The position numbers and the translations under genes were made by a program. 64,000 bases of DNA from Fidelibacterota bacterium. GTDB taxonomy: Bacteria; Fidelibacterota; Marinisomatia; Marinisomatales; TCS55. Shown piece by piece: positions 43,205 to 64,000 of the stretch. Numbering within the stretch: position 1 is the first letter of the stretch; each line of letters opens with the position of its first letter. The stretch covers positions 212,871 through 276,870 of the forward strand of contig JAAZYX010000033.1 of the NCBI GenBank assembly GCA_014239435.1. The letters run 5' to 3'. Below the pieces are notes generated by a model. That model did no database searches. It saw only the letters and a program-made list of their open reading frames with translations, and was not told where the DNA came from.

Positions 43205-44455
43205 ATGGCTCATCCTCTTTTACATATCGCCAACGACAAAAATCTGATGGAATCCCTTGCGGAAGAGTATGGTACTCCGCTTTATGTGTATTCCGCGCAA
43301 CGTATCTCAGAGAATATTCAACGCTTCAACAATGCATTACAATTGTCCTTTAATAAATATCACCTGTGTTATGCCGTTAAGGCAAATAATAATCCGAATC
43401 TTGTTTCCTATATGAAATCGCAGCTTCCCTTGCTAGGCGGCGATTGTTCCAGCCCAGGCGAATTATGTGTTGTAAAGCAGGCAGGCATGAGCGGTGAAGA
43501 ATGTATTTATTCGGGCAATTATGAATCTGCCGAAGATTTACAATCTGCTTTATCCAGTAATGCCTGGATCAATCTGGATGATATCACTTCTTTTGACAGA
43601 TTAAAAAGAATCGGCCTGCCCAAGAGATTATCTTTCCGGATAAATCCGGGATTCGGGAAAGGGACATTTTCACAAGTAGTAACGGGCGGGAAAGATGCAA
43701 AATTTGGCGTCCCAAAAGAAAAAATAGTCGAAGCATATCGAACCGCCGCCGCAGAAGGCATTGCTCGTTTTGGATTACACTGCATGACGGGATCCGGTGT
43801 ATTGGAGAAAGCTTATTTTGAAAATATGTTCAATGCATTGTTGGCAGCCGCACGTGAAATTGAAGCCGCTATTCAATGCAGTCTTGAGTTCATTAGCGTC
43901 GGCGGTGGATTTGGAATTCCTTACAAAAATGAAGAACCATCATTGAATATCGAAAAAGTGATGGAAAATCTCAGTACTATTTTTTATCAACAATATCCGG
44001 ATCGTGCACAAGCACCATCTTTCTGGTGCGAGCCGGGGAAATTTCTGGTAGGAGATGCCGGGATTCTTCTGACCAAAGTAACAGGGTTAAAAGAAGGATA
44101 CCGAAATTTCATCGGATTGGATGCCGGTATGGAAACGCTCATGCGTCCCGGATTATATGGCGCATATCATAGGATTTATAAAGTGGGCGATGTTGATGCA
44201 GAGCACAGCCAAGTTGTGGACATCACCGGTAGAATTTGTGAAAATACGGATCGGCTTGCGGTGGACCGTCCCTTTCCAAAAGTTGGCGAAGGAGACTTAG
44301 TCGGTATAATGGATGTTGGTGCCTATGGCTATGCGATGGCACATCAGTTTAATACACGTCCGCGGCCGGCCGAAGTATTGCTGCATGAAAACCATTCAGA
44401 ATTGATTCGAAAACGAGAAACCATTGAAGATATTTTTCAGAATTGCAATGTATAA
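43205..44455 (+). CDS. lysA: Diaminopimelate decarboxylase
   Basis: LysA forms L-lysine from meso-diaminopimelate with pyridoxal phosphate. The 416-residue enzyme has the cofactor lysine K59 in CYAVKANNNPN, HCMTGSG-like text near residue 195, FISVGGGFGIPY for phosphate binding, WCEPGKFLV (EPGR-like), and a C-terminal DVGAYGYAMAHQFN where the tyrosine contributes to the dimer active site. Length and motifs are normal. Its 3' end overlaps the start of the exported GH18 gene by eight bases, an odd partner for lysine synthesis, unless free diaminopimelate comes from peptidoglycan breakdown. Confidence 0.95.
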   Translation: MAHPLLHIANDKNLMESLAEEYGTPLYVYSAQRISENIQRFNNALQLSFNKYHLCYAVKANNNPNLVSYMKSQLPLLGGDCSSPGELCVVKQAGMSGEECIYSGNYESAEDLQSALSSNAWINLDDITSFDRLKRIGLPKRLSFRINPGFGKGTFSQVVTGGKDAKFGVPKEKIVEAYRTAAAEGIARFGLHCMTGSGVLEKAYFENMFNALLAAAREIEAAIQCSLEFISVGGGFGIPYKNEEPSLNIEKVMENLSTIFYQQYPDRAQAPSFWCEPGKFLVGDAGILLTKVTGLKEGYRNFIGLDAGMETLMRPGLYGAYHRIYKVGDVDAEHSQVVDITGRICENTDRLAVDRPFPKVGEGDLVGIMDVGAYGYAMAHQFNTRPRPAEVLLHENHSELIRKRETIEDIFQNCNV

Positions 44456-46886
44456 GTTGTGTCTGACACTGCTTTTGATTGGATTTGGATTTAGCCAATC
44501 CTATCAAAGTATTCACGAACTTCAGTTAGAATATTTCAATCAACATTATGTTCCGGAAGAAATAGATGATAATGCACTATCTGAAATTTTTGGTAAGAGT
44601 AGAAGAAACATGACTCCAACCGCTGAAATATTCGGATATCACCCGTATTGGATGGGGACTGCTTGGCAGAACTACAATTACAGCCTACTGAGCACAATCG
44701 CTTATTTTAGCGCAGAAGCTACAGCGACAGGCGGGTTGAGTAATTTGCACAGCTGGCCGATTAGCGGATTGATTAATATGGCCCATTCCAATGGTGTTGA
44801 TGTTGTTTTGGTTGTAACCCTATTTAATAATTCGGATTTAATTACACTTTTATCCAGCAGTACGAATCGTCAGAATTTGATTAACAATTTAATCACTCAG
44901 GTCCAGGCTGGGAATGCAGATGGTGTAAATGTTGATTTTGAATCAATGCCATCATCCCAAAGGGATAATATGGTTACATTTATCACCGACCTTACGGCAG
45001 CATTTCATTCTGCAATTCCCGGATCTCAAGTCACGATTGCAATGCCGGCAGTGGATTGGAACAATGCATGGGATTTTCAAGCCTTAGCGCAGACGAGTGA
45101 TGGACTGTTCATCATGGGGTATGATTATCATTACAGCGGAAGTTCCACCACCGGAGCAAATGCACCCTTGACTGGTGGTTCGTACAATGTTACTAATACA
45201 ATAAATACTTACCTGAATGAAACGGGAGGTTTAGCAAATAAAATAATTTTAGGGTGTCCTTATTTTGGGTTTGAATGGCCCTCTACCACCGGCTCTTCTG
45301 GGTCGTCCACTACTGGGAGTGGATCGGCAAAATTTTATTCCGCACAGGAACCTCTGGCTCAATCCTATGGAAAACTTTGGGATTCCAACTCACAAACACC
45401 GTGGTATAAATACCAAAACCCAAGTTGGTATCAAGGATGGTACGACGACAGCCTCTCTTTATCTCTGAAATACGATTTTGCGATTCAGAACAATTTGAAA
45501 GGTGTCGGAATGTGGGCACTGGGCTATGATGGATCTAATCCCGAATTATGGGAAGCATTGGCAGATAAATTTGGAGCAGAATCTGCGCCGACTATTCCTA
45601 CAAACATTTCCATGGAAAACATAAACAATGGCTCTGTTATTATAGAATTCACAGGAGCCGCTGGAGCGGACAGCATTACCATTTTAAGAGAATATTTAAA
45701 TTCAACCGCCGTTGACACACTTGGAACATTTAGCCAGCGTCCGGTAGTATTAACTGAATTAAATGCGGATGAAACATATTTCATCCGCATTTTTGGGTCG
45801 AATGCGTTTGGACAAAGCCCATCATCAGAAATGTTAGGATTCGTTCCAACCTTGGAAGCGGTAAGGGTATTAGTCGTAAATGGATTCGATCGTATAAGCG
45901 GTACAAACAATACATTTGATTTTATTCGCCAGCACGGGAGCGCTATTTATTCTGTTGGATATGCATTTAACAGCGCCAATAATGAAGCCGTCATTTCAGG
46001 ATCAGTAAGTTTAGAAGATTACGAAATCGTGGACTGGATTTTAGGCGAAGAAGGAACCGCAACCAGTACACTCACCGCAACGGAGCAATCCCTGTTAGCC
46101 GAATTTTTGGATAATGGCGGGCGATTGTTTATTTCTGGATCGGAAATAGGATATGATTTATCAAGTCATGGAAATGTTCAGGATCAGCAGTTTTATCATC
46201 AATACCTCAAGGCACAGTACATTAGCGATGCGGCAGGCGGGCAACAGGGTGTGTATAGTGGATATGGAGTTTCAACCACTTTATTTGATGAAATAAATAC
46301 AGTATACTTTGATGATGGAAGTCATGGAACCTATGACGTGGATTGGCCGGATGGAATTAAACCGTTAACTGGAGCTACGTCCTGCGCCAAATTTACTGGA
46401 GTGGATTATGGGTCAAGAGGCGGAATGGGAATTTCTTTTGATGGTTCATTTAGCATCGACGGAGGACATGGTGCAGTGGTGTATTTATCTGTTGGGTTTG
46501 AATCGATTTACCCTGAGAATTCAAGAAATCTTATCATGAGCAATGTCCTGAACTATTTTGATGAACTTCCAACTGTTTCTACAACATCAGAAAATTTTAT
46601 TCCGAGTAATTTCGGGATAACATCAGTTTATCCGAATCCCGCGAATTCTAAAATTACAATGTCCATTGTCCTACCTCCGAATAAGAACAATTCTACAATT
46701 TCCATAATTGATTTAGCAGGGCGAACAATATTTACAGAACGCATTTCTTCCTCTTCATCTGGGAATGTAATATGGACCTGGGACGGCAAAACACATACTG
46801 GAGAACCCGCTCCTTCCGGTGTATTCCTCGGAGTCCTATCCAATGAGGAAAGTTCTAGTGTTTACAAATTCAGTCTATTGAAATGA
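44448..46886 (+). CDS. Exported GH18-type glycosidase with T9SS-like sorting domain
   Basis: An 812-residue exported protein. ATG at 44448 gives a clean signal (MYKLCLTLLLIGFGFSQ). The GH18 barrel spans about residues 60-380; its catalytic motif is D158-G-V-N-V-D163-F-E165, where E165 is the acid. IMGYDYHYSG and VGMWALGYDG are further GH18 signatures. A fibronectin-like domain follows (about 390-470), then an unassigned alpha/beta domain (VRVLVVNGFDR, LFISGSEIGYDL; about 475-710), then a divergent sorting domain (VYPNPANSKIT, ending KFSLLK). GH18 enzymes hydrolyse chitin or peptidoglycan. Overlap with NamZ (four bases) favours peptidoglycan here. Confidence 0.87.
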   Translation: MYKLCLTLLLIGFGFSQSYQSIHELQLEYFNQHYVPEEIDDNALSEIFGKSRRNMTPTAEIFGYHPYWMGTAWQNYNYSLLSTIAYFSAEATATGGLSNLHSWPISGLINMAHSNGVDVVLVVTLFNNSDLITLLSSSTNRQNLINNLITQVQAGNADGVNVDFESMPSSQRDNMVTFITDLTAAFHSAIPGSQVTIAMPAVDWNNAWDFQALAQTSDGLFIMGYDYHYSGSSTTGANAPLTGGSYNVTNTINTYLNETGGLANKIILGCPYFGFEWPSTTGSSGSSTTGSGSAKFYSAQEPLAQSYGKLWDSNSQTPWYKYQNPSWYQGWYDDSLSLSLKYDFAIQNNLKGVGMWALGYDGSNPELWEALADKFGAESAPTIPTNISMENINNGSVIIEFTGAAGADSITILREYLNSTAVDTLGTFSQRPVVLTELNADETYFIRIFGSNAFGQSPSSEMLGFVPTLEAVRVLVVNGFDRISGTNNTFDFIRQHGSAIYSVGYAFNSANNEAVISGSVSLEDYEIVDWILGEEGTATSTLTATEQSLLAEFLDNGGRLFISGSEIGYDLSSHGNVQDQQFYHQYLKAQYISDAAGGQQGVYSGYGVSTTLFDEINTVYFDDGSHGTYDVDWPDGIKPLTGATSCAKFTGVDYGSRGGMGISFDGSFSIDGGHGAVVYLSVGFESIYPENSRNLIMSNVLNYFDELPTVSTTSENFIPSNFGITSVYPNPANSKITMSIVLPPNKNNSTISIIDLAGRTIFTERISSSSSGNVIWTWDGKTHTGEPAPSGVFLGVLSNEESSSVYKFSLLK

Positions 46887-48160
46887 CAAAACCCATTCAA
46901 TCTTTATTATGGATTGGATTCTTCTCTATTTTATGGAGTCAAGAGACATCAACCCATCAGGAACAATCAGAAAAATATAAAAACAAAAGTGTACCACCGA
47001 TAGAAATTGTGGATACACGTACCGGATTGGATATTTTATTATCAGAAAAAGAGAATCTATTAATAGGGAAAAGAATTGCCCTTGTCACCAATCACACCGG
47101 TGTCGACAATAATGGTATTCCTAATTATAAACGGATAATGGAAATACGAGGAGTGGATTTAAAAATAATCTTTTCACCCGAACATGGATTATTCGGGGAA
47201 GCCGCGGCAGGAGAAAAAGTACATTATGAAGGGAAAGAAATTCATTTTCCAAAAGTGATAAGCCTTTACGGAAAAAGCAGAAAGCCGGACCCGGAGTTAT
47301 TGAATGGATTGGATTGGGTAATTTATGATATTCAGGATGTTGGGGTTCGCTTTTACACATACATATCTACTTTGGGGCTCGTTATGGAATCTGCTGCAGA
47401 AGCCGGCGTTCCGGTCATGGTCTTGGATCGCCCAAACCCAATTAGAGGAGATAAAATAGGAGGCCCTGTTCTCAATCTCGAATTTCAATCTTTTGTGGGG
47501 TTTTATCCAATTCCTATTCGATATGGGTTAACTGTTGGAGAATTGGCAAAAATGATTGCCGGTGAACGTTGGATTCATCATATACCTGAATTAGAAATAA
47601 TTAAAATGAAAGGATGGGAAAGGAATCGATGGTTTAATGAAACATCCATAGTTTGGACAAATCCTTCGCCGAATATTCCAACTCTTGAAACCGCAATTGT
47701 ATATCCCGGTACCTGTTTACTTGAAGCGACAAATTTGAGTGAAGGGCGTGGTACAAAAAAACCGTTTATTTGGATGGGTTCCCCTTGGATAGATGGGAAA
47801 AAACTATCAGCATTCTTAAATAAGCGAAATTTACCTGGCGCAGTATTTAAGCCAATTACTTTTACACCTGTTGCGAAAGTAGGAGTTGCGGCTAACCCAA
47901 AATTTAAAGGCGAAATATGTAGTGGTATTGAAATTGTAATAATGAATAAAAATGAGTACCAATCTGTCCGGACTGGAGTTGAGTTGCTGCAATCTGTAAA
48001 CAAGTTATTCCCGGGAAAATTAGAAATAAGAGAGTCCAGCATGAACAAGTTGTGGGGAAATACTGAGTTATCTTCTCATTTAAATGACGGAGATAAAATT
48101 ATAATTGAAAAAGAGAATTCTGAATTCCTTCAGCTTTCTTCTAAATACTTCCTGTATTAA
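46883..48160 (+). CDS. namZ: NamZ-like exo-beta-N-acetylmuramidase (DUF1343)
   Basis: A 425-residue protein of the DUF1343 family, shown in Bacillus subtilis and Tannerella to release MurNAc from the non-reducing end of peptidoglycan fragments. It has a signal peptide (about 1-18). Family motifs are ALVTNHTGVD (about 71), FSPEHGLFGEAAAGEKV (about 96), YDIQDVGVRFYTYISTLG (about 149), LDRPNPI and SEGRGTKKPFIWMGSPW. The start overlaps the GH18 stop as ATGA, so the two should be made together. In B. subtilis namZ lies with nagZ and an amidase gene; equivalents here lie about 10-16 kb downstream. Confidence 0.92.
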   Translation: MTKPIQSLLWIGFFSILWSQETSTHQEQSEKYKNKSVPPIEIVDTRTGLDILLSEKENLLIGKRIALVTNHTGVDNNGIPNYKRIMEIRGVDLKIIFSPEHGLFGEAAAGEKVHYEGKEIHFPKVISLYGKSRKPDPELLNGLDWVIYDIQDVGVRFYTYISTLGLVMESAAEAGVPVMVLDRPNPIRGDKIGGPVLNLEFQSFVGFYPIPIRYGLTVGELAKMIAGERWIHHIPELEIIKMKGWERNRWFNETSIVWTNPSPNIPTLETAIVYPGTCLLEATNLSEGRGTKKPFIWMGSPWIDGKKLSAFLNKRNLPGAVFKPITFTPVAKVGVAANPKFKGEICSGIEIVIMNKNEYQSVRTGVELLQSVNKLFPGKLEIRESSMNKLWGNTELSSHLNDGDKIIIEKENSEFLQLSSKYFLY

Positions 48161-48223: not shown

Positions 48224-49267
48224 TCAAAAAACAATACCTAAAGAAATACGCTGCAAATTTTCCAATCTTCCATAATTTTGGAAACAATAATCAACTTTTA
48301 ATCTGGCGGAGCTTCTCCACAATCTTGTTTTTAAACCTCCGCCAAAACTAATCGCCTCTTCAGAGTTCCCTTTAAAAAGTGATGCAAAACCGGTTCTGAG
48401 AAAAATTGTTTCTCCCATAGCAATCTCTACCCCAGTATTGACCGATTCATTGTTGTCATTTGGATGAATTGCATCCAAGCCAAATGTAATTCGAAACAGA
48501 TTTGTTTTTACCAATTCATTCGAAATTCCGACCCTAAACAACAGGGGTAATGGGAAAGATTCAGTTTCGTATAACGCATTTACGAATTCTACATTTCCTT
48601 GGTTATTAGGATCGGGGTCGACACTTAATTTTTGATCACGGCCTGAAAGACTCATATCATTTCCATAATTTGAAAGGGAGGCGCCAATACGCGTGCCGGC
48701 AAAGGGTGTAATAAAAAGAACGCCTAAATCTCCCGCAATGGATGTTGCTGAGGTATGCCAGATTTTTTGTTGAATAAATTTGAAATTTCCTCCGATAGAA
48801 AACCTATCCGTTAATTTTTTAGCATATGAAAGCTGAATTGCCATATCCGAGGCTTCCCAGAATTCTCCTGTACCTTCAGGCTTACTGATGGTACGTACAA
48901 TATCTTTCGGAACTGAAAGCTGCGTAACACTAATTCCAAGTACTCCGAAATTTCGAATCGGAATACCAATTCCAATGTGCTGGAGTTGGGTCTCTGCAAT
49001 CCAGTTACTATTTATAAATGCGACTTCAATTCTATCAAGATTTGATAATCCTGCGGCATTCCAAAAAACCGATCCTAAATTCCCGGGCATGCTTACAGAC
49101 GCACCGCCCATCGACGGGCCGACAGCATCAAAAGGGATTTTCAAAAATTGTGCGGATGTTGTTCCTGATTTGGAATTTGTTTGCGTATTATCGAGCTGCG
49201 CCAAACTTATGCTAACCGTTAAACCGGCAAGCAAAAAGTGTAAAAAAATGTATTGGACCTGTTTCAT
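48224..49267 (-). CDS. PorV/PorQ-family outer membrane protein
   Basis: A 347-residue FadL-like barrel of the PorV family. After the signal peptide (about 1-23) come AQFLKIPFDAVGPSMGGASVSMPGNLGSVFWNAAGL and MAIQLSYAKKLTDRFSIGGNFKFIQQ, typical of the UPF0164/PorV group, ending in an outer-membrane-type FxxxLGIVF. PorV escorts T9SS cargo to the attachment complex in Porphyromonas. Here the gene comes last in an operon with a large T9SS-type protein and a TonB receptor. Its start overlaps the preceding stop by four bases, so it may be a dedicated partner of that cargo. Confidence 0.88.
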   Translation of the reverse strand: MKQVQYIFLHFLLAGLTVSISLAQLDNTQTNSKSGTTSAQFLKIPFDAVGPSMGGASVSMPGNLGSVFWNAAGLSNLDRIEVAFINSNWIAETQLQHIGIGIPIRNFGVLGISVTQLSVPKDIVRTISKPEGTGEFWEASDMAIQLSYAKKLTDRFSIGGNFKFIQQKIWHTSATSIAGDLGVLFITPFAGTRIGASLSNYGNDMSLSGRDQKLSVDPDPNNQGNVEFVNALYETESFPLPLLFRVGISNELVKTNLFRITFGLDAIHPNDNNESVNTGVEIAMGETIFLRTGFASLFKGNSEEAISFGGGLKTRLWRSSARLKVDYCFQNYGRLENLQRISLGIVF

Positions 49268-52200
49268 TTTATGACGGCAAATCTTCCAATCTTTTCACCA
49301 AGACTGCCTGCATCAACATGAAATATATATACTCCGTAGGCAATCGGGAAATTATCCATGGTTGTAAGATCCCAAAATTCCTTCCCGTCATCTATTTCAG
49401 AATTATGATATAAAATATTCACCAAAGAACCATCCATCGAGTAAATGCGGATGGTACACTCTTCCGGAAGGTGATTAAAATAAACTCGGCGCGGACCCCT
49501 ATCTCGCGGATTTTGAAGATCTAACCGCTCCAATACATTTGTTACAACATATGGATTGGGAACAACGGATATATTATCGAGCTCATTTTCCGCCTTACTT
49601 TTGTCAATTTTAGAACTATGGCTGATAAATGAATATGTATCTGAATTGGTAAATGGACGTTTTGTTACAATGCTTAAAATATCTCCATCTGTAGGCAGTA
49701 TTTCTGTACCGGCCTGGGGTTCATATAGTGTGAATTCCCATGTCGTTGTCGTTCCGGTTTCTCCCAAAAATATAATGACTCGTTCCCGCGGTGTCCACTG
49801 ACCGTCCGGGTTCACATAATCCAATATCGCAAACCGTTGTTCCTGCGGCACCATTCCGTTTGTAACCTCATAGATTTTAAAATTGGCTTTTATTCCTGCA
49901 TAATCGCCTGTATCAACAATAGTAGATGCAAAATGCACTTCGTAATCTGCAGGGTATTTATTGGATGCAACTCCATCGTATGGACCGACTTGATAGGTAA
50001 AATTCGTTTGAGCAGAAGAATTCCATCCGGTTTTAGCAATATCTAAATCTAATTCTTCATCTTGAACATACAGTTTAATGCCATCAAATACTGGATTGGA
50101 TTCTTCCCAATTATGAAGCTCGCTATCTTTGATGGGGAAATATGTGTATTGTACCAAATATGTTCCTCCGTCCGACAACGCACCACCATTGATTGCTTTC
50201 ACCCTCCCAAATTCAGCATCCAATACATAATCAACATTAGATTGAAAAATGATTTGCCCATCGGAACTGGTAAATAAAAAAGTGGAATCATTGATATTGG
50301 TATGCATTAGACCAATATATTTATCAATATTTGCAATAAACACTTCTTGCGTGAGCTTTAAGTCTTCCACCGAGTAGCGTGTAGGATATTCATAAAAAGT
50401 GATTTGAAAAGTATCTGCTTCTTCTAATGCCATTGGATCAATGATCTCTATATCAAGAGGTCCTGTGGCAATACCAGATGAATGTGTTATAGTTTGGTTT
50501 TCTATATATCCTGATTGGTAGCCTAAGGCTGGTACCCTTGGCGTAATTTGTATAGTATTTAAATCCAGAAATACTTCATTATTTTCCGGATTGACCGTAA
50601 TTAGTTTTGAACATTCTGTTGGGGGGATTTCCAGATCTGCATCACCATGATCATATGAAACAACTGCATAATAATACTGCTGGCCATTCAAGACATTGTT
50701 TGAATCAGTATAGGTATGTTGAATTCCTGTATTATTTCCCAAATAATAGTATACACCTCTTCCTGTGTAAGGAATGGTACTGAGTCCAACATAACTATTA
50801 TCAAGATCAAATTTTGCGGATGCACCATTAGATGTTTTCAAAGGTTCAAATAAAAATTTTGTACCGTAAGCATCGGTAATTGTTTGCTGATCTAAAAATT
50901 GTGGATCTGTGCTTCTGTAAATGACATACCCTTCAAAATCATTTTTTTCAGATATCGGGTCAATTGAAGATTCGGCGACATCATTCCAATACAAGGTTAC
51001 TTTTTGGTCTCCGGGAACGGCCGTTACAGTTGGCTTTTCGGGCGGTTTGGCAAATTGATAATTCTTTTCATAAATACTCTGAGAGGTTACCGCATTTAAT
51101 GTAAGATCATCATAATCTTGTCCAACAATAAGCGCAATAGAGAACCGTCTTGATTCCCCGGCCGGCAACGTAATGGGCCCGCTACTGTAAATAAAGATAT
51201 AATCACCTGCAACTTGTGAATTCGCAGAATCAAACACTCCCGGGGTTAAAAAATTCTGAAATACAAAGTGATCATTAGAAATAGAATTATTCCCGCCGAA
51301 TTGCGGCGCCGAAAACCCGGTTAATCCAATCATATCCGATTCATCTAAGTCCGTCCACTCAAAGTTTGGCTCACCGGGTTGTCTAATATCAAACGGATCT
51401 CCTGCCGTTGGCACTCCATCTCCCTCGCCGGTATCACCCGTATTCGGGAGGCCGTCAATTCCAACATCGTCTTTTTCAGGGTCCCAGTCATTATCATTAT
51501 CAATCCCATCAGTCTGACTTTCATCAACCATTCCATCTTCATCATTGTCTAAACCGTCCAAAGGTTCCCCCGGACTTTCGAGAAATTTATACCCAAAATA
51601 TCCCGGAGGACGGCCAACCACATCACTTAATCCATCTGAATCCCAGCAATAAACCATATTGATATCACGGTCAAAAAAGGACAAATCATCCCGCCAATTG
51701 CTCGGGCCTCCAACATGAGGGTCTCCCCACATCCCAAAAACAGTATTGTTTAAATCTTTAGAACTGACATTTGTTACTTTATAAATGAGGAAAATAATAT
51801 CTTCAGCTAACGGATTTGACCACTGATAATATCGGCATTCAATTTCAATCCCAAGACCTTTTCGGGAAGAATCATCCGAGAAGGGATAATATTCGAATTC
51901 CTTATTTTTTCGATCATCCACAACGAAAAAGGATTCCATATCTGAATTCGAAGCTCCTTGCTTAAGTGCACCCGGCCAAACATATTTTTTTAAATTCTCA
52001 TTATACCATCCCTCCGCCCAACTATCCGGCTTTCCATCACCGTCTCTATCAATATCGTTTGATGTAGGGATATAATCACTGTTTTGGTCGCCATATGGAA
52101 CATTTTGATTATTATATGCAAGTGGCTCCCATCCCCAAAACTCTTTTCCATCAGGAGAAACTTCTCCTCCTAACGAAACTAATCCATCACTAATTGCACG

Positions 52201-52653
52201 TACATGCCACGTTGTATCACCATCCAAATTTACTTTAGCGTATGCATCCTCATGACTTCTGGATTCAATCGGGACTTCTGCGCAAATAAAAGGTCCGAAT
52301 TCATACCCGTATCCTAACCCTTCCCAAACTATATCACTTACGCGGTTTCCCGGACTGGATATTGAACCATAATTCCAGATTTCTGCTGTAATCTTATTAC
52401 CGTTTAGGATTGCTTTTTGTCTTCTTAATACCTGATCAGTTGATGTAGAATTAAATTGGTTTTCTAATATCCGATTCCGCCAATTATAGAAGCGTTGGTG
52501 CTCCCATTTCGACCAATCTTTTTGAGGCCCTTGTTTGTATTCTTCAATTTTTTCCATATTTGAAAAAGGCCAAAACTGTCCTTTGGTCGTATCCATAAGA
52601 AACAGAAATAAGACACTGTATATCAATGTAAAATGCTTTGAAGTAGGACTCAT
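49264..52653 (-). CDS. Large exported protein with T9SS-like sorting domain
   Basis: A 1129-residue secreted protein of unknown function. A signal peptide lies at about 8-25. The text NRDGDGKPDSW and, later, a D/G/N-rich segment at about 355-425 (NDEDGMVDESQTDGIDNDND...) resembles calcium-binding thrombospondin-type loops. Fibronectin-like domains follow (KPTVTAVPGDQKVTLYWND near 530, with YVIYRSTDP). The C-terminal domain is a sorting domain of a different type: VVPNPYVVTN...YFNHLPEECTIRIYSMDG, ending GRFAVIK. Proteins of this build, paired with a TonB receptor and PorV homologue, recur in the FCB group. No catalytic motif was recognised. Confidence 0.8.
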   Translation of the reverse strand: MSPTSKHFTLIYSVLFLFLMDTTKGQFWPFSNMEKIEEYKQGPQKDWSKWEHQRFYNWRNRILENQFNSTSTDQVLRRQKAILNGNKITAEIWNYGSISSPGNRVSDIVWEGLGYGYEFGPFICAEVPIESRSHEDAYAKVNLDGDTTWHVRAISDGLVSLGGEVSPDGKEFWGWEPLAYNNQNVPYGDQNSDYIPTSNDIDRDGDGKPDSWAEGWYNENLKKYVWPGALKQGASNSDMESFFVVDDRKNKEFEYYPFSDDSSRKGLGIEIECRYYQWSNPLAEDIIFLIYKVTNVSSKDLNNTVFGMWGDPHVGGPSNWRDDLSFFDRDINMVYCWDSDGLSDVVGRPPGYFGYKFLESPGEPLDGLDNDEDGMVDESQTDGIDNDNDWDPEKDDVGIDGLPNTGDTGEGDGVPTAGDPFDIRQPGEPNFEWTDLDESDMIGLTGFSAPQFGGNNSISNDHFVFQNFLTPGVFDSANSQVAGDYIFIYSSGPITLPAGESRRFSIALIVGQDYDDLTLNAVTSQSIYEKNYQFAKPPEKPTVTAVPGDQKVTLYWNDVAESSIDPISEKNDFEGYVIYRSTDPQFLDQQTITDAYGTKFLFEPLKTSNGASAKFDLDNSYVGLSTIPYTGRGVYYYLGNNTGIQHTYTDSNNVLNGQQYYYAVVSYDHGDADLEIPPTECSKLITVNPENNEVFLDLNTIQITPRVPALGYQSGYIENQTITHSSGIATGPLDIEIIDPMALEEADTFQITFYEYPTRYSVEDLKLTQEVFIANIDKYIGLMHTNINDSTFLFTSSDGQIIFQSNVDYVLDAEFGRVKAINGGALSDGGTYLVQYTYFPIKDSELHNWEESNPVFDGIKLYVQDEELDLDIAKTGWNSSAQTNFTYQVGPYDGVASNKYPADYEVHFASTIVDTGDYAGIKANFKIYEVTNGMVPQEQRFAILDYVNPDGQWTPRERVIIFLGETGTTTTWEFTLYEPQAGTEILPTDGDILSIVTKRPFTNSDTYSFISHSSKIDKSKAENELDNISVVPNPYVVTNVLERLDLQNPRDRGPRRVYFNHLPEECTIRIYSMDGSLVNILYHNSEIDDGKEFWDLTTMDNFPIAYGVYIFHVDAGSLGEKIGRFAVIK

Positions 52654-52659
52654 TATTTG

Positions 52660-55548: not shown

Positions 55549-57294
55549 ATGAGGAAAGTTGTTATTGTTCTTTTCTTACCCGTTTTCGTCTTTGCTACTG
55601 ACTTTACTCAAACTGGCGTAGTTGAGGAATTTACTACCACTGATCCTGTCACTCAATCAGACTCACTTTTTGGTGGACTTCCCTACGACGCAGGAAGAGG
55701 AGCACACGGCGGTACAGATCTTGATGAAGATGGATTAACGGAAGTGTGGATTACCAGCTATGACGGCGGCGGACGGGTGTTCTGTTTTGAAGAAACAACC
55801 GGCGATACGCTTGCATTTGTTTGGGCATCCGACACAATTAACTCAGATTATACCACTCCCAGAGATGTGCATTCCGGGGATTTGGATGGAGATGGAAATG
55901 GTGAAATTATCTTTTTCACCGGCCGATATACATCCAATACTGATAATGGACTCCATGTCTATGAATGGGACGGAAGCACCGATAATGGATATGGATCTTC
56001 ACCTGCGCTTCAAGCAAATTTGCTGACGGCCTTGAATGACAGTCTCTATGAGTCACGTGTAGAAGGATTTTCTGTCGCTGATATTGACGGTGATGGAGAA
56101 GATGAAATTCTGGTAGCCAGTAACGGCACTTCAAATCCAGTCTATGGTACTGACGATGGGTCAACTGCTTATTCTGAAGATAGGTTTATCATTTTAGGCG
56201 TTACAGGTGATATTGGCGGGCTCGGGGCAACATTAACCGAAGAGTATTCCATGTCTCCGCGTGATGTAAATAAAGACGGAACTAGAGGAAATTCTCTTGG
56301 CGGCGGAAGCCCGCAGGATATTGTAGTTTGCGATACGGACGGCGATGGAATGATGGAAGCAGTCTGTATTTCGTGGAACAATCTAGCTGTCTTTTTTATC
56401 GAAGCTACCGATACCAATGCCTACACAATAGGCGATACGAACTACCTGAAATTGGGAGTCGCTGATGACTGGACACTAGGCGCTGCGGCAGCAGATATGG
56501 ATGGAGACGGAAAAGATGAAGTCTATCTTCCAGGATATTATGACGGGAAATTATTCGTCATTACAGATGCTGACAGTGATGCAACAAGTTTGGATACAAC
56601 CGGCGCAGATGCTAAAGACTTTGCGGGAAATAGCGAAGTTGCAATATTAGCTGAACTTGGTGCCTATGCCGGACATGGTGTTTCTGCTAAAGAAGGCTTT
56701 GGTGTTGTTATGGGTGGCGCAGCTGATACAACAGATATCAGATTGTTTTCTTACGGTGGATCTGGATCCGTACTAGACAGTTCAAACTGGACTCATATGG
56801 ATTATGCTTTGAATGATGCAAGCTCCGGTACCATACAGAAAATTTCCATTATTGATTTTGATGGAGATGGATATCCGGATGTATTGGCAGCTTACAAAGG
56901 CGTAAGTGACACTACTAGCACGGGCGGTTTGGATCCTGATGCAAACAGGGTTTTGCGAATTGCAGAATGGGGTACATCATTATCAATTAGAGATTTGACC
57001 CTCATTATGCCGGAGGATTACAAACTCGAGCAAAACTATCCGAACCCGTTTAATCCAAACACAACCATCGGATATACGATGCCGGTAGCGAATGTAATTT
57101 CTCTGACTATTTACAATGTTCTTGGTCAGGAAGTTGTTCGCTTAATAGATAACGAACGTAAAGAAGCTGGTCAATACTCAGTCCTGTGGAATGGATTAGA
57201 CAGCAACGGAAAAGCTATCAGCAGCGGAACCTATTTTTATGAACTTCGTTTCGGAAACCTGACAAAGGTTCGCCAAATGACATTTGTAAAATAA
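55549..57294 (+). CDS. Exported FG-GAP/VCBS repeat protein with T9SS sorting domain
   Basis: A 581-residue secreted protein preceded by a strong ribosome site (GGAGG, four bases before ATG). The signal peptide is MRKVVIVLFLPVFVFA. The body contains repeated calcium-type loops: DLDEDGLTEVW, DLDGDGNGEIIFF, DIDGDGEDEILVA, DTDGDGMMEAVCI, DMDGDGKDEVYLP and DFDGDGYPDVLAA. These are FG-GAP/VCBS beta-propeller repeats (about 50-470) that usually bind ligands or sugars. The C-terminal domain is a canonical T9SS sorting sequence (NYPNPFNPNTT, ending MTFVK). It is divergent from the TonB receptor operon and ends at a strong terminator. Confidence 0.92.
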   Translation: MRKVVIVLFLPVFVFATDFTQTGVVEEFTTTDPVTQSDSLFGGLPYDAGRGAHGGTDLDEDGLTEVWITSYDGGGRVFCFEETTGDTLAFVWASDTINSDYTTPRDVHSGDLDGDGNGEIIFFTGRYTSNTDNGLHVYEWDGSTDNGYGSSPALQANLLTALNDSLYESRVEGFSVADIDGDGEDEILVASNGTSNPVYGTDDGSTAYSEDRFIILGVTGDIGGLGATLTEEYSMSPRDVNKDGTRGNSLGGGSPQDIVVCDTDGDGMMEAVCISWNNLAVFFIEATDTNAYTIGDTNYLKLGVADDWTLGAAAADMDGDGKDEVYLPGYYDGKLFVITDADSDATSLDTTGADAKDFAGNSEVAILAELGAYAGHGVSAKEGFGVVMGGAADTTDIRLFSYGGSGSVLDSSNWTHMDYALNDASSGTIQKISIIDFDGDGYPDVLAAYKGVSDTTSTGGLDPDANRVLRIAEWGTSLSIRDLTLIMPEDYKLEQNYPNPFNPNTTIGYTMPVANVISLTIYNVLGQEVVRLIDNERKEAGQYSVLWNGLDSNGKAISSGTYFYELRFGNLTKVRQMTFVK

Positions 57295-57316: not shown

Positions 57317-57351
57317 AAAAAAGCCTCCACTTGTAAGTGGAGGCTTTTTTT
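57317..57351. terminator. Strong bidirectional rho-independent terminator
   Basis: GCCTCCACTT (57323-57332) pairs perfectly with AAGTGGAGGC (57335-57344) around GT, flanked by A and T runs on both sides. It lies between two convergent genes ending at 57294 and 57370. Confidence 0.95.
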
Positions 57352-57369
57352 ATATGTTGTATATATTTC

Positions 57370-58686
57370 CTATTTGAGAAGAACCATTTTTAATGATTGA
57401 TCGAAGTTTCCTCCTTCTATTTGGTATATATATAATCCTGACCCCATTTTTTCTCCTGACTCATTTTTCCCGTCCCATTGAATGTTATAATTGTAACCGG
57501 GTGCGTATACATCATTAGCCAATGTCTTAACTGGTCGCCCCAAAATATCCACCACCCTGATTATTATTTCACCTTCTTTTGAAACGTCAAATGGAATTGT
57601 AGTTAAATTATTGAATGGATTGGGATAATTCTGGAATAACCTATATGAACTTGGAATATCTCCGTATTCCAGATAAAGGGTGATATCATCCCGTAAATTG
57701 GGCAACAATGCCCAAATATTATCCCCGGGGCAGGAAGTATATTCATAATCGTAGTAATCCCTGTGCCCCTTGAGAATATGGGGATTATCATATCCATATT
57801 CTTCAGAAATCCATGCGTATAGTTTTACGAGCGTATCTCTTGTGGCAACAGTCATTTCATCGTAACAATAGTAAGATGTGACCGGCGGATGATAACACCC
57901 GAGCACGCAAACGCCGATATTCCCCGTATTTGCACCGGAAGTGTGCGCACCCAAGACAGTCTCAGGTCTAGCTTGATAGATATTCCCTCCTTTATCAACG
58001 ATAAAATGATAACCAATATCAGACCATCCGCGGACATCTTGGTGTAGTTCTTGGATTGCCTGCATCTGGATAATACCTTCCTCGATTGTAGTTGCAGAAA
58101 ATCCAGCAGCATGATGAAGAGTAATTTTATCGTAGTATGGCATTGATGTATAGCCAAAATTCGGCGGTTTTGCGTTCCATTCTTCCCGAGAAATGATATG
58201 AGGTTTTGGAATATGAGGCAAACTCACCTTTTGAAATATCCTTAGAGAGTCAATTATTTCCTCTTGTTCAGATAGAATAATCCCAGTAGTCAAAATTTGG
58301 GAATCAAAATCCGAAGTAATTGTTATTTCAATTTTTTTTGATTGAGTAAATTCGAATCCCCTATACGTAGCGAATAAGCGGTCTGAAAATGGTTCGGGAA
58401 ATATTTTGGCTTCTACCCGATTGGACCACAACCCATTAATATTTAGGAATCTGAATCGAACCGAAATTGGATCCATCCCCTGAATTCTAAAAATAATTCC
58501 CTCAGCATCTTCCCTATTAGGATCTAAATCAGCAATTAATTCCTGAGAGTAAGACGTGCCTGAATACCGGTCATACGATTTTTTAAAATCCAATTCTACG
58601 GGAATAGCCATATCCAAGAATTGCCCTCTCGAAGAGCTGGAAAAAATCACCAGTAATAATAGTAATTGGAATCTTTGTTTATTCAT
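57370..58686 (-). CDS. Exported N-acetylmuramoyl-L-alanine amidase (Amidase_2/PGRP) with T9SS sorting domain
   Basis: A 438-residue enzyme that should cut the bond between MurNAc and the stem peptide. Signal peptide at about 1-21; an Ig-like N-terminal domain (about 25-155); the Amidase_2 domain (about 165-335) with zinc ligands among H191/H192, then H308 in LKGHRDY and C319 in SCPG. Cysteine as third ligand matches PGRP and T7 lysozyme-type amidases. The sorting domain contains NYPNPFNNLTT and ends KMVLLK. Export by T9SS would place it at the cell surface, so it probably acts on foreign or shed peptidoglycan. Convergent with the FG-GAP gene. Confidence 0.93.
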   Translation of the reverse strand: MNKQRFQLLLLLVIFSSSSRGQFLDMAIPVELDFKKSYDRYSGTSYSQELIADLDPNREDAEGIIFRIQGMDPISVRFRFLNINGLWSNRVEAKIFPEPFSDRLFATYRGFEFTQSKKIEITITSDFDSQILTTGIILSEQEEIIDSLRIFQKVSLPHIPKPHIISREEWNAKPPNFGYTSMPYYDKITLHHAAGFSATTIEEGIIQMQAIQELHQDVRGWSDIGYHFIVDKGGNIYQARPETVLGAHTSGANTGNIGVCVLGCYHPPVTSYYCYDEMTVATRDTLVKLYAWISEEYGYDNPHILKGHRDYYDYEYTSCPGDNIWALLPNLRDDITLYLEYGDIPSSYRLFQNYPNPFNNLTTIPFDVSKEGEIIIRVVDILGRPVKTLANDVYAPGYNYNIQWDGKNESGEKMGSGLYIYQIEGGNFDQSLKMVLLK

Positions 58687-58891
58687 TCTTCCATAATTAT
58701 AGTACTGTTAAAATTAAACAACAAATAGAGTAATAAAGTTAATTTGGATTTTGGTTTATAAAAATGACTCACAACAAATCTAAATAATACCTATTTCAAT
58801 AATCAACAGATTGACAAGTTAATCCGGTGTTAGAAAATCATATAGTTTGTTTTAAAATCATGATTCACTCCAACCGACAAATTAAATAAAT

Positions 58892-61228
58892 ATGAATAAC
58901 AACTTCTGCTCACCTGTTGAGTTAACCTTTTTTCAAAAACAGGATAGCCAATCTCAATCTGCCAAGATCCCCTATATCCTTGTAGATAACTTTCCTAATC
59001 TGGGACTTTTAACATCCCTCAGATTTCTGGAATGGGTTTCTGAGAATCCCGAAGGAGTCGTCAGCCTACCTACTGGAAAAACACCGGAATTTTTTATCAA
59101 GTGGACACATCATTTATTAGCTAATTGGGATTCAAATGATTTAACCGCATTTCGAAAAGAGAACGGTTTCAACTCAAATGAAAAGCCGAATCTATCAGAG
59201 TTGACTTTCGTTCAAATTGATGAATTCTATCCTATGGATCCTACCCAACATAATAGTTTCTACCATTATGTTAACAAATATTATCTGGACGGGTTTGGAA
59301 TCCCGGATAAAAATGCATTGCTAATCAATACAGAATCTATTCCACTCTATCAAAACAAGCATTGGTCTGAAATATTCCCAAAAGGCGTTATCGATCTTTC
59401 GCTACGGCATAGAGAACCAAAATCAAATCTGGAAAAGGACCAGAAAAATTCAATTTATCATATTGATCAATGGTGCACAGAGTATGAGAAAAAAATTAGA
59501 GACATTGGAGGGATTGGATTTTTCCTTGGCGGCATTGGTCCCGATGGACATATTGCCTTTAATATTCGCGGGTCGAATCACAACTCTACAACCAGACTGA
59601 TGGAAACCAATTTTGAAACGCAGGCGGCGGCTGCAACTGACTTAGGCGGAATCGAAATCAGTAAAAATCGGCTTGTGATTACAATTGGACTCGGAACAAT
59701 AACATTTAAAAAAGATGCTGTGGCAATTATCACCGCTGCCGGTGAGGCTAAAGCGCCCATTGTAAAGCGATCTCTTGAGTGCGAACCGGATATAAATTAT
59801 CCTGCTTCAGTTTTACAGAATTTAAAAAACAGCAGGTTTTATTTAACCAATGGCGCGGCAAAACATTTAGAGGATGTTGAAAATAGGTATTGGTCAGATA
59901 CAGAATGGAACAATTCAAAAAAGCAGCGTGCACTACTTCAATTAACAAAAAAGGTGAATATATTCGGGAAAAAATTATCAGTTGGCAACCTTAAGAATGA
60001 CCCAATCTGTAAAAATATTCCAAACCTCAATGAAGAGTCAGCTTCAAAAATCATCGAGCAGATTGATGCCAAAGTACAAAAAGGAATTAAGGCCGAAACA
60101 CATCAGATCTTTTATCATACCGGCCCGCACCACGACGATATTATGCTGGGTATGATGCCGCATATTATTCATCTTATCCGCTCTCCCAGCAATACACATC
60201 ATTTTGCAAACATGACTTCAGGGTTCACATCTGTTACGAATGGGTTTATCGCTGAAATCCTAACAGATACAATAAGGCTCTTATCAAATAATGAAATTCA
60301 AATGACACTGTATCACGATTTTTTCTCTGATGGATATAACCGTAAATGGGATAAAGATGTTTTTCATTATCTCGATAATATCGCAGGGAATAGTGCAGAC
60401 GGCCAAAAACGCGGAATGGCACACCGCATTGTTCGCTGTTTAGTGTCAATATATAAAATCAAAAATAAATCTGAATTGGATAATCGGATTAAGGCAATTA
60501 TTGATGAACTAACCCAGTGTTACAGCGGTGAAAAAAACTCGAAAGAAATTCAACAGCTCAAGGGAATGATTCGAGAGTACGAAGAGGAATTGGTTTGGGC
60601 CAACTATGGTGTTAGAGTAAAAGACATTCACCATTTAAGGCTCGGGTTTTATACCGGCGATATTTTTACTGACACTCCTGAAAGGATTCGGGACGTAATG
60701 CCAATTTTGAAACAGCTAAAGGAAATAAATCCAACGGTGATTTCGCTTGCTTTAGACCCGGAAGGCAGCGGTCCGGATACACATTATAAAGTGCTCCAGG
60801 CAATCGCTGAAGCAATACGAATGTGGAGGAAAGATGCAGATCTTTCTCATCTTCGCATTTGGGGTTATCGAAATGTGTGGTACCGCTTTACTTTAGATGA
60901 AGCCGACTTGATAGTTCCTGTTACTTTGAATTCCATGGCTATTTTGAAATCAACCTTTATGAACTGCTATTTAAGTCAAAAAAACGCATCATTCCCAAGT
61001 TATGAGCTCGATGGACCCTTTTGTGATTTATCTCAAAAAATTTGGGTGGAACAGCATCAAGATTTACAATTACTCCTAGGCAGAGATTATTGGTATCAAA
61101 ATGAAAATCCGCATTTGAGAGCAGTGCATGGCGCTATTTATTTAAAAGAAATGAGCGTGGATGCATTCCTTGATTCAGCCAGAAAACTTGAAGAAACTAT
61201 GGAAGGATCAGCTTTAACTACCAATTAA
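58892..61228 (+). CDS. Glucosamine-6-phosphate deaminase-like / PIG-L-like fusion protein
   Basis: A 778-residue two-domain cytoplasmic protein. Residues about 30-340 are a NagB-type aldose-ketose isomerase fold: FLGGIGPDGHIAFN contains the D218-G-H220 active-site set that opens the sugar ring and deaminates glucosamine-6-phosphate to fructose-6-phosphate. Residues about 400-770 resemble PIG-L/LmbE deacetylases, with the metal motif H413-H414-D415-D416 in YHTGPHHDDIM. Fusions of this kind are known in Bacteroidetes (annotated NagB-like). It would feed scavenged amino sugars into glycolysis, possibly after deacetylation. The 3' end overlaps the convergent DUF1460 gene by four bases. Confidence 0.9.
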   Translation: MNNNFCSPVELTFFQKQDSQSQSAKIPYILVDNFPNLGLLTSLRFLEWVSENPEGVVSLPTGKTPEFFIKWTHHLLANWDSNDLTAFRKENGFNSNEKPNLSELTFVQIDEFYPMDPTQHNSFYHYVNKYYLDGFGIPDKNALLINTESIPLYQNKHWSEIFPKGVIDLSLRHREPKSNLEKDQKNSIYHIDQWCTEYEKKIRDIGGIGFFLGGIGPDGHIAFNIRGSNHNSTTRLMETNFETQAAAATDLGGIEISKNRLVITIGLGTITFKKDAVAIITAAGEAKAPIVKRSLECEPDINYPASVLQNLKNSRFYLTNGAAKHLEDVENRYWSDTEWNNSKKQRALLQLTKKVNIFGKKLSVGNLKNDPICKNIPNLNEESASKIIEQIDAKVQKGIKAETHQIFYHTGPHHDDIMLGMMPHIIHLIRSPSNTHHFANMTSGFTSVTNGFIAEILTDTIRLLSNNEIQMTLYHDFFSDGYNRKWDKDVFHYLDNIAGNSADGQKRGMAHRIVRCLVSIYKIKNKSELDNRIKAIIDELTQCYSGEKNSKEIQQLKGMIREYEEELVWANYGVRVKDIHHLRLGFYTGDIFTDTPERIRDVMPILKQLKEINPTVISLALDPEGSGPDTHYKVLQAIAEAIRMWRKDADLSHLRIWGYRNVWYRFTLDEADLIVPVTLNSMAILKSTFMNCYLSQKNASFPSYELDGPFCDLSQKIWVEQHQDLQLLLGRDYWYQNENPHLRAVHGAIYLKEMSVDAFLDSARKLEETMEGSALTTN

Positions 61229-62070
61229 TCAACGAATTCCAAAGGCTCAAACCTATACACCATAATACCGTCAAAAACCGGGCCGGAATCTCTGAAATAA
61301 TATGTCATAAAATCTTCTCTTAAGGTAGTGCCTCTCCCTTGAGATGCATGCAGTATTTCCGCATTATCAATAATCATTCCTTCATGCGCAATAATAATAC
61401 CCTGAGTAAAATAGGATTTTTTGACAAATGCTACTCCGCATACTTCGGGCAATCTTTCCAAAATTTCTACATCGATATTTTCACTGGTGATAAAATTTAC
61501 GATAATATTTTTCGTCCAATTCAAATCAAGAAATTCGCTTCCGTCTGTTTTCTGATTCAGCACTATTTCAACCTGTTCAAGATCGCTTTTATCTGCGACT
61601 TCAGGTGTTATATCAACAGTTGAAGAATGAAATGAAATGCGGTCGGATGTATAATGCCATCGGCTCTTAAATGTAGGTATTTTCTGTCCTAGTCTATCCG
61701 GCTTATAATGAATTTCAATCATCGTTTCCTTTGCATCTTCCCAATCTCTACTTTGAACAAACGCCATGCAGGTTAATATATGCGCAGTACAGTCTGAAAC
61801 ATCCAATCGAATGATGGGATCAAGGTCGGGTTCAGCTTCCTCTCCCAATTTGAAAATTTCGTAAGGAGTTCCAATTCGCCAAAGCGCGAATGCTTTTAAA
61901 CGGTCATGAAAATCCGGATAGCGCTTTTGAAATTCGGGAAGCAGTTCTGACACTTCATCGTGAGATAATGTCCATGGTTTTGGAATGGTTTCAACCCAGT
62001 CCCACCTCTCTTCGACTTGCCCAAAAAGCAAAATCTGGAAAACCAGTAAAAAAGGAATAATGATTTTCAT
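61225..62070 (-). CDS. DUF1460 amidase-like exported protein
   Basis: A 281-residue exported protein (signal peptide about 1-17). It matches the DUF1460 layout: an NlpC/P60-like fold with the candidate nucleophile C94 in RLDVSDCTAHILT, then HYKPDRLG, PTFKSRWHYTSDRI, LPEVCGVAFVKKSYF, and a late histidine in ILHASQGRGTT. Members are N-acetylmuramoyl-L-alanine amidase-like enzymes in Bacteroidetes that act on anhydro- or reducing-end muropeptides. It lies four bases after the GH3/beta-lactamase-fold gene, so the two form an operon for peptidoglycan breakdown. Assignment of the exact bond cut is inference from the family. Confidence 0.88.
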   Translation of the reverse strand: MKIIIPFLLVFQILLFGQVEERWDWVETIPKPWTLSHDEVSELLPEFQKRYPDFHDRLKAFALWRIGTPYEIFKLGEEAEPDLDPIIRLDVSDCTAHILTCMAFVQSRDWEDAKETMIEIHYKPDRLGQKIPTFKSRWHYTSDRISFHSSTVDITPEVADKSDLEQVEIVLNQKTDGSEFLDLNWTKNIIVNFITSENIDVEILERLPEVCGVAFVKKSYFTQGIIIAHEGMIIDNAEILHASQGRGTTLREDFMTYYFRDSGPVFDGIMVYRFEPLEFVD

Positions 62071-62074
62071 GTAA

Positions 62075-64000
62075 TCAGTTTTGGGTTTCGGTTTTCCATC
62101 GATTTCTCATCAATAGATTCGGATTTTGTCCAGACAAACCTACTGCCTCATAGGCGGAGGAGTTTATTTTCTGCTGCCAGTCATAATATTTCGGTTTTTT
62201 CCACGAACGATTAGGATGTACTGCATTAGTCAAAAGAATAACAATCATCTCCTGTTCCGGATCAATCCACAATGATGTTCCCGTAAATCCTGTATGGCCG
62301 AAGCTTGAATCACTTAAAAACACTCCTCCACTGGAAGAATCAGAAGGACTGTCCCATCCTAAGCATCTCGAGCTTCCCTGTACTATTTCTGCCTTTGATG
62401 TGAATTTCTCTATGGTTTGTTTTCGGAAGATTCGTTTCCATCCATACAAACCGCCATTCAATAACATTTGTGAAAAAGTTGCCAAATCCCGCGCAGTGCT
62501 GAAGAGTCCGGCGTGCCCGCTTACTCCGCCGAAATAACGCGCATTTTCATCGTGTACCACACCATGTACTGCTTGACCATTTTCATCTACCTCTGTCGGA
62601 AGGATGCGGTGAAATTTTGTCTGCTGAGGGTTAAATCCTGTTTCTTTCATTCCCAAGGGTTCAAAAATTTCTGCCAAAATATAATTGTCCAAAGGTGTCC
62701 CCGAGGATTGTTCAATGATTTTCCCCAAAATCATAAATCCTATATCCGAATATATCGTTTGTTTCACCGGGCTTATTTCAACCTCCGTAGCGATGACATC
62801 ATCCCAATCAGCCTTCTGTTTATAAAATTGTTTGAAAGGCGGAAGGCCGGACGTGTGGCTCAATAAATGGCGAATGGTAGTCGTCTTTTTACCGGGACCA
62901 TAAAAATTATTCAGAGAGTTTATAACTAGACCATCCAATTTTAATTTTCGCTGGTCCATTAATTTCATAATCCCGGACGTTGTTGCAATTACTTTAGTCA
63001 AGGATGCTACATCGTAAATATCCGATGGCTGGACAGGCTTTTTCTTATCATAGGTGTGAAAGCCAAACGCTTCGTGAATGAATATCTTACCGTTTTTTGC
63101 CGCAAGCAAAACACCGCCCGGCCATGCAGAATCCGATACAGCATCATTCATTAAACTCCTCAGAATAGATACATCAGCACCAATCTCATAAGGCATAACG
63201 CGCTTCAGCAATGTTCCCGGTTTTCCATTAGTTTTCGCAATTTGTCTTTTTGATTTCTCAGTTTGAATTCCAAATCCATAATCAGCCACTCCCGGAATTG
63301 TAATCGGCAAGGTTCCGCTAATTGGATTCTTCCCAAGGAGGGCTTTGGCGCACGCTTCTTGAAGTACAGAATTTCCTTTATACGCGCAAAGGTAAACCGG
63401 AACTTCCGGAAAATCCTGGATGAGGTACGGATTTCCAAAGCTGACCAAAACAAGATTAGTGACCTTATCAGCCAAATTTCTTACAAAATCAGCTTCCGGA
63501 TCCGGTAAGCCGATTCGATCTTTGTGCGCTTTGGGACTGGCAAATGCATTCACAATTACCGTTTGTACTGGGTTAATCTGATTGAGTACCGATCGTAGAT
63601 AATCAGCGCTATCCGATTCGTCAATTTGAAATTGAATAATTTTTTTGCCGCTTTTGCGAATCAGTTTGGACATTAAACTTTCAGAGTGATTATTTGGAGA
63701 ATCATATAGATCTATCACCACCCAACTTTCATCAGAGTTTGCTTCAAGCGGAATGACATTTCCTGCATTTTTGACAAGCGTTAATGATTTTTCGGCAATC
63801 AGAGCAGCTGTTTTTTTGTTTTTAGCCAATCCAAGATTTTGTTGAGCATTTTCCAAATTAATGAAGCGGTTTTGTTGCAGCCCGATTTTTTCTTTCATTT
63901 TCAGCATTTTCAGCGCGGATTCATTGATTTTTGATTCGAGGATGATGCCGTCCTGAACTGCCTTTTCCACCACATCAATTGCTTTTGTTACATTTTGCGC
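62075..64000 (-). CDS. NagZ-type GH3 glycosidase fused to a beta-lactamase-fold domain (N-terminus outside window)
   Basis: The reading frame is open to the right edge, so the N-terminal GH3 catalytic barrel is missing here; only the GH3 C-terminal alpha/beta domain is visible (about residues 40-240 counted from a GTG at 63973: ALIAEKSLTLVKNAGNVIPL, LLGKNPISGTLPITIPG). The rest (about 265-620) is a serine beta-lactamase or esterase fold with S324-L-T-K327, YSDIGF in the place of YxN, and HTGFTG in the place of KTG. This GH3/class C fusion is known in Bacteroidetes and acts on GlcNAc-MurNAc fragments; the second domain may be a peptidase or esterase. The tail ends KTETQN. Confidence 0.9.
   Translation of the reverse strand, partial: AQNVTKAIDVVEKAVQDGIILESKINESALKMLKMKEKIGLQQNRFINLENAQQNLGLAKNKKTAALIAEKSLTLVKNAGNVIPLEANSDESWVVIDLYDSPNNHSESLMSKLIRKSGKKIIQFQIDESDSADYLRSVLNQINPVQTVIVNAFASPKAHKDRIGLPDPEADFVRNLADKVTNLVLVSFGNPYLIQDFPEVPVYLCAYKGNSVLQEACAKALLGKNPISGTLPITIPGVADYGFGIQTEKSKRQIAKTNGKPGTLLKRVMPYEIGADVSILRSLMNDAVSDSAWPGGVLLAAKNGKIFIHEAFGFHTYDKKKPVQPSDIYDVASLTKVIATTSGIMKLMDQRKLKLDGLVINSLNNFYGPGKKTTTIRHLLSHTSGLPPFKQFYKQKADWDDVIATEVEISPVKQTIYSDIGFMILGKIIEQSSGTPLDNYILAEIFEPLGMKETGFNPQQTKFHRILPTEVDENGQAVHGVVHDENARYFGGVSGHAGLFSTARDLATFSQMLLNGGLYGWKRIFRKQTIEKFTSKAEIVQGSSRCLGWDSPSDSSSGGVFLSDSSFGHTGFTGTSLWIDPEQEMIVILLTNAVHPNRSWKKPKYYDWQQKINSSAYEAVGLSGQNPNLLMRNRWKTETQN

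Follow-up and report, generated by a model that had tools for sequence, protein, structure and literature searches.

A predicted muropeptide-salvage locus in a member of the Fidelibacterota

The window analysed here is a stretch of 64,000 nucleotides from the genome of a Fidelibacterota (SAR406/Marinimicrobia) bacterium (G000:C21:212871-276870; assembly of 1.735 Mb in 33 contigs, completeness 93.4%). Between 44.4 and 64 kb it carries a group of genes that, together with the DNA just past its edge, we read as a muropeptide-salvage locus, at a probability of roughly 0.8 for this reading with the mechanism proposed below. Functions were assigned by homology throughout, several profile matches falling under curated cut-offs; gene families, motifs, order, conservation and the presence or absence of MurQ, NagA, AnmK, MurA and PorU were established directly, with 199 genomes of the phylum as the comparison set. 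Open reading frames (ORFs) and profile searches recovered, each in its place, every gene named in the original prediction, which had been made from the sequence alone, including those on which its salvage proposal was built:

44424..46886, + strand: GH18 glycosidase with a type A tail of the type IX secretion system (T9SS) (PF00704, 1.4e-35; TIGR04183, 29.5 bits, cut-off 23)
46883..48160, + strand: NamZ, exo-beta-N-acetylmuramidase family (NamZ_N 1e-77, NamZ_C 1.5e-40)
57370..58686, - strand: T9SS-tailed Amidase_2 protein of the peptidoglycan recognition protein (PGRP) type (1.6e-15; TIGR04183, 31.3 bits)
58892..61228, + strand: NagB-like/PIG-L fusion (PRK02122, 4.8e-58, under that model's cut-off)
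61225..62070, - strand: DUF1460 protein, an AmiA-like amidase in Pfam (7.3e-18), with a signal-like N-terminus
62075..64000, - strand, running on to 64969 past the window: GH3/beta-lactamase fusion (profiles and flanking DNA)

Both domains of NamZ, a predicted exo-muramidase, exceed the Pfam gathering scores (NamZ_N 260.6 bits, NamZ_C 139.9 bits), and the protein has a signal-like N-terminal stretch, the family motifs PEHG and LDRPNP, and PDB matches to 4k05 and 4jja. The GH18 gene overlaps namZ by 4 bp and encodes the motif DGVNVDFE; the nearest solved relatives of its GH18 domain include the spore-cortex types YdhD, YaaH and cortical-lytic enzyme, and also chitinases. PGRPs are the closest solved relatives of the amidase, whose HH, GHRD and SCPG motifs are as expected for the zinc ligands. 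Read on into the flanking DNA, the full GH3/beta-lactamase gene encodes 964 aa with a lipoprotein-like N-terminus, an intact NagZ-type motif KHFPGHGDTETDSH in the GH3 part, and a class C-type SLTK in the serine beta-lactamase-like part. Ahead of the GH18 gene, the end of lysA (diaminopimelate decarboxylase, 43205-44455) overlaps its start by ~32 bp, and a LysA match also lies close to the cluster in L055 and L058.

A core set of genes stands 1-10 kb past the window edge (coordinates above 64000 are the window numbering extrapolated into flanking DNA). It forms one tight operon, divergent from the GH3 fusion and with overlaps of 4-35 bp from NagZ to NagX:

64948-66075: NagZ, predicted to be cytoplasmic, divergent from the GH3 fusion
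66072-67151: ROK-fold sugar kinase
67145-68350: SpoIID/LytB protein
68338-69621: AmpG-family permease
69587-70738: NagX-like acetyltransferase (profile 1.7e-47, below the curated cut-off)
70735-71661: PqqB-like metallo-beta-lactamase
71658-72425: short-chain dehydrogenase/reductase (SDR)
72444-73016: BioY

The TTG start listed for NagZ gives 375 aa, compared to ~340-350 aa in its homologues, and was probably placed too early. The start of the SpoIID gene lies within the kinase gene, and no signal peptide is evident in its product. The permease, for which the original prediction had proposed a search, matches the AmpG family at 2.2e-52 and 178.1 bits; although this is below the TIGR00901 cut-off of 350, AmpG is still its best-matching family.

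Related genomes bear out the conservation of the set, with its genes co-occurring and clustering. The GH3/beta-lactamase protein is matched in 175 of the 199 phylum genomes, NamZ in 170 and MurQ, over cut-off, in 152. The distance between NamZ and the GH3 fusion is 14 kb in the window genome; at least 29 of 170 phylum genomes have the two no more than 10 kb apart, a lower bound taken from the listed best matches and a higher number than chance would give (naive P 9e-17, ignoring relatedness). In the marine relative L110, the genes run GH18-NamZ-DUF1460-GH3/beta-lactamase-NagZ-kinase-SpoIID-AmpG-NagX-PqqB-SDR in one block, with a putative esterase between the GH3/beta-lactamase gene and NagZ. 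DUF1460 adjoins the GH3 fusion in relatives, and GH18 is found near or beside NamZ in L110, L175, L177, L178 and L182. The block that is contiguous in L110 is split in the window genome by the amidase and NagB/PIG-L genes and by two further features, both identified by profile searches:

48224..55365, - strand: operon of a TonB receptor, a 1129-aa protein and a PorV-family protein
55549..57294, + strand: FG-GAP repeat protein with a T9SS tail

From L110 and the flanking DNA, the window and flanking genes, which had been taken for a merely distributed set, look like one ancestral cluster with its core beyond the window, and the simplest history would be that the lineage of the window genome acquired the genes at 48224-61228 at this site, by insertion or by relocation.

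Families f1, f7, f8 and f12 (such labels denote kinship groups of the compared genomes) repeatedly have DUF1460, SpoIID, the kinase and NagX in the vicinity of the GH3 fusion, and across these relatives NagZ alternates with a family 2 glycosyltransferase (GT2) protein and AmpG with a sodium:solute symporter (SSS). A search of GTDB genomes for the kinase family gave 80 loci from Neomarinimicrobiota, Calditrichota and Bacteroidota, including a few from records under other labels, with GT2 near the kinase in 70 of the 80, SpoIID in 69, AmpG in 40 and NamZ in 33; absences here mean little, because contigs often end early. The cultured example Maribellus sediminis (L143) has SIS/MurQ-like, GT2, kinase, SpoIID and major facilitator superfamily genes, L158 has MurQ-AnmK-NamZ-GT2-kinase-SpoIID-AmpG together, and relatives also show the arrangement GT2-kinase-SpoIID-AmpG-NamZ-SSS. 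In nine relatives, MurQ and NamZ are separated by 26 bp to 1.8 kb. In L141 the kinase and SpoIID form one ORF, as do DUF1460 and the GH3/beta-lactamase protein (9929-12484 and 1579-3540, the two single-ORF fusions listed).

Two further observations concern NamZ. Its open frames in G163, G151, G189 and G198 are 865-897 aa long, about twice the usual size, which suggests a fusion in family f16. A second NamZ of the window genome, 35% identical, lies at L004:10640-13286 (G000:C12) and overlaps a sodium:solute symporter gene, possibly as a separate uptake pair for N-acetylmuramic acid (MurNAc).

MurQ, another target proposed in the original prediction, was found on contig C12 (361 bits, cut-off 302), outside the operon of the cluster, with an alanine symporter gene before it and a PgmG/GlmM-like phosphohexomutase gene directly after. 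A phosphohexomutase stands beside MurQ, directly or one gene off, in 23 of the 30 top-scoring MurQ loci; the gene between the two, where read, is AnmK by motif, in agreement with the positions from the AnmK search. AnmK was not found in the window genome nor in most of its family and is present in 113 of the 199 genomes. The suggested search for NagA gave no match over cut-off in the window genome, with 40 of the 199 genomes positive. Given an assembly completeness of 93.4%, these two absences lean also on absence in same-family relatives. In G023, G128, G114 and G134, AnmK is 0.7-0.8 kb from the GH3/beta-lactamase gene.

No standalone NagB was found in the window genome, where the NagB/PIG-L fusion is the only NagB-like match. 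Its NagB domain scores ~80-86 bits, short of the TIGR00502 cut-off of 236.9. Compared with the catalytic set D72/D141/H143/E148, the Asp and His motifs are kept and the Glu148 position is Ile or Val in all aligned relatives; the PIG-L domain keeps HHDD. The Glu148 replacement weakens a role for the fusion as a plain deacetylase and deaminase of N-acetylglucosamine (GlcNAc) 6-phosphate (GlcNAc-6P). At least nine genomes (e.g. G060, G010 and G054) have both the fusion and NagA, so that the fusion is not simply a NagA substitute, and no literature linking NagB-PIG-L to peptidoglycan was found. The direct entry into glycolysis that had been proposed thus appears doubtful, because NagA and standalone NagB are missing and the NagB-like domain is without its catalytic Glu. 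The conserved phosphohexomutase neighbour of MurQ suggests a route from GlcNAc-6P to GlcNAc-1P, and a GlmU-type UDP-GlcNAc enzyme is encoded at 41856-43073 (TIGR03991, 438 bits, cut-off 225). Tentatively, and with more doubt than confidence, we consider a NagA-independent branch in which GlcNAc-6P from MurQ would pass through GlcNAc-1P (phosphohexomutase) to UDP-GlcNAc (GlmU-type enzyme), so that sugars from the wall would return to it while bypassing glucosamine-6P, with a cytoplasmic SpoIID enzyme and a new ROK-like MurNAc/GlcNAc kinase acting on imported fragments.

For the kinase, a sequence-profile search of the PDB returned 3r8e weakly and nothing else. An AlphaFold model of the L109 orthologue (57% identical; pLDDT 91, pTM 0.87) gave ROK kinases as top Foldseek matches (NagK/NanK/glucokinase; GlcNAc and ManNAc kinases; E down to 1.2e-15), with moderate TM-scores of 0.5-0.6 by query, and an invariant Asp aligns with that of the ROK 'NDA'. 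The matches listed in this fold comparison did not include MurK of Tannerella forsythia (8OW9 etc.). Judged from the model, the protein is a ROK-fold sugar kinase. The search for a MurNAc kinase has thus yielded a kinase gene, and its MurNAc specificity remains conjectural.

The TIGR04183 sorting domain is over cut-off on both the GH18 protein and the amidase. Their export by T9SS is credible because the PorU sortase is over cut-off in the genome (593.5 bits, NCBIfam cut-off 420), making the predicted surface delivery plausible. The TonB receptor and PorV operon had been suggested as the importer of products, a role that we set aside. In L110 the operon is absent between NamZ and DUF1460, and other relatives have weak partial matches only, so that it is not retained at the corresponding place. 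It is probably a bystander interrupting the ancestral cluster, as is, probably, the FG-GAP protein, and AmpG fits better as the likelier inner-membrane importer.

The mechanism that we propose is inferred as regards what each protein does and where, which way material flows and where the peptidoglycan comes from. Acting extracellularly or in the periplasm, the GH18 protein (as a glucosaminidase), the amidase, DUF1460 and the GH3/beta-lactamase lipoprotein would trim peptidoglycan and expose MurNAc ends, from which NamZ would remove MurNAc. A glucosaminidase beside NamZ would be sensible because endo-glucosaminidase cleavage yields MurNAc-GlcNAc ends, as exemplified by Staphylococcus aureus (PMC6262408). 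Small sugars or disaccharides would then pass the inner membrane via AmpG, whose slot is taken by the SSS symporter in many relatives, and in the cytoplasm NagZ, perhaps with the signal-less SpoIID/LytB protein, would finish the glycan. The ROK-fold kinase would make the amino-sugar 6-phosphate, and MurQ would convert MurNAc-6P to GlcNAc-6P. Because NagA is missing, two fates are proposed for GlcNAc-6P, either conversion to GlcNAc-1P by the MurQ-linked phosphohexomutase for UDP-GlcNAc or deacetylation by the fusion's PIG-L domain.

Among characterised systems, operon Tanf_08345-08385 of T. forsythia (gtf-gtf-lytB-ampG-ybbC(namZ)-murT-murK-murQ) comes closest by gene content; it serves muropeptide and MurNAc use (PMC5388701, PMC7670621) and has the same gene types. 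In relatives of the window genome, GT2, LytB/SpoIID, AmpG and NamZ genes likewise follow one another together with a sugar kinase gene, and MurQ is linked. In the window genome SpoIID adjoins AmpG and NamZ belongs to the cluster (adjacent to DUF1460-GH3/beta-lactamase in L110), but there is no GT2 in the operon, NagZ being in that place. Whereas the T. forsythia operon holds both kinase and MurQ, here the kinase is in the cluster and MurQ on contig C12; T. forsythia is without MurA and MurB, both of which the window genome has; and the window cluster adds GH3/beta-lactamase, DUF1460, NagX and GH18, with a kinase of another, ROK-like family. The namZ-nagZ-amiE-murQRP cluster of Bacillus subtilis, with uptake by the phosphotransferase system, shares the logic of NamZ, NagZ, amidase and MurQ, and is not known to contain AmpG, SpoIID, GH3/beta-lactamase or T9SS. 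Recycling in E. coli runs through AmpG-NagZ-AnmK-MurQ-NagA-NagB; the AmpG, NagZ and MurQ steps are shared with the window genome, in which AnmK, NagA and standalone NagB, in contrast, were not found.

Judging from its genes, the window organism makes its own peptidoglycan: MurA (548 bits, cut-off 392.7) and MurB (341.8 bits, cut-off 259) are present, and an apparently complete division and cell wall (dcw) cluster contains the MurE/F/D/C ligases, MraY, MurG, MurB, FtsW and FtsZ, the members besides MurB and the ligases being recognised from sequence and gene order. Fidelibacter multiformis IA91, of the same phylum, is reported to live on exogenous muropeptides via MurNAc-6P to GlcNAc-6P and to be unable to make peptidoglycan, and reliance on exogenous muropeptides is described as ancestral to the phylum (PMC11652737). 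MurA-negative phylum members share the salvage set with the window genome. Wall auxotrophy of that kind, with muropeptides needed for wall building, would fit this ancestry and the shared genes; MurA, MurB, the ligases and the rest of the dcw cluster contradict it for the window organism, and we regard it as very improbable. The same genes mean that fragments will be shed, so ordinary recycling of the organism's own turnover products, with no foreign peptidoglycan, is a serious possibility, if still on the improbable side. The T9SS tails and PorU point outside the cell, however, and the set persists in lineages that have no MurA (families f21, f23 and most of f25), among which the phylum's cultured member feeds on exogenous muropeptides. 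By hand count, NamZ occurs in every one of some two dozen genomes that are 90% complete or more and have no MurA over cut-off, and MurQ over cut-off in nearly all of them. Conversely, genus f2/g8 (0.7-1.0 Mb genomes) is the sole genus consistently without NamZ, the GH3 fusion and MurQ, and it retains MurA. The window organism may feed on peptidoglycan of other cells or may recycle its own wall.

Use of amino sugars from chitin or glycoproteins (GH18 chitinase, GH3 hexosaminidase, GlcNAc kinase, NagX, NagB) would accommodate the resemblance of GH18 to chitinases, a kinase fold shared with GlcNAc kinases among others, and NagX, known from GlcN/GlcNAc use. We consider it unlikely, since NamZ, DUF1460, SpoIID/LytB, AmpG and the linked MurQ/AnmK are murein-related families and NagA is missing. 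The interspersed PorV, TonB and FG-GAP genes might suggest that unrelated envelope genes have come together here by chance, but this is hardly credible in view of the L110 contiguity, the phylum-wide linkage, the gene fusions and synteny conserved across three phyla.

Peptidoglycan salvage is thus supported by gene content and context, and several points weigh against it. The T9SS amidase and NagB/PIG-L genes are linked to the cluster inconsistently across relatives, both Pfam domains of the fusion score below gathering thresholds, and the AmpG, NagX and NagB-like scores are all below curated cut-offs. Pfam and NCBIfam profile searches with the kinase gave no match to ROK or any other family, so that MurNAc or GlcNAc is a putative substrate. 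Enzyme activities, expression and localisation in the mechanism are predictions from sequence.

Salvage genes are widespread in Fidelibacterota: genomes possessing MurA and genomes lacking it have retained them, and a streamlined clade has lost them but still has MurA. Salvage and self-synthesis can therefore be separated, which makes a peptidoglycan-as-nutrient role for marine SAR406 testable, muropeptide dependence having been established previously for one cultured member of the phylum. Concrete biochemical questions are posed by the missing NagA alongside the conserved MurQ-phosphohexomutase pair, and by the signal-less SpoIID beside a kinase without a family. Elsewhere in the genome, at L073:7232-11728 (G000:C16), lie two adjoining cyanophycin-synthetase-like genes, one full length and the other similar to the ligase half only.

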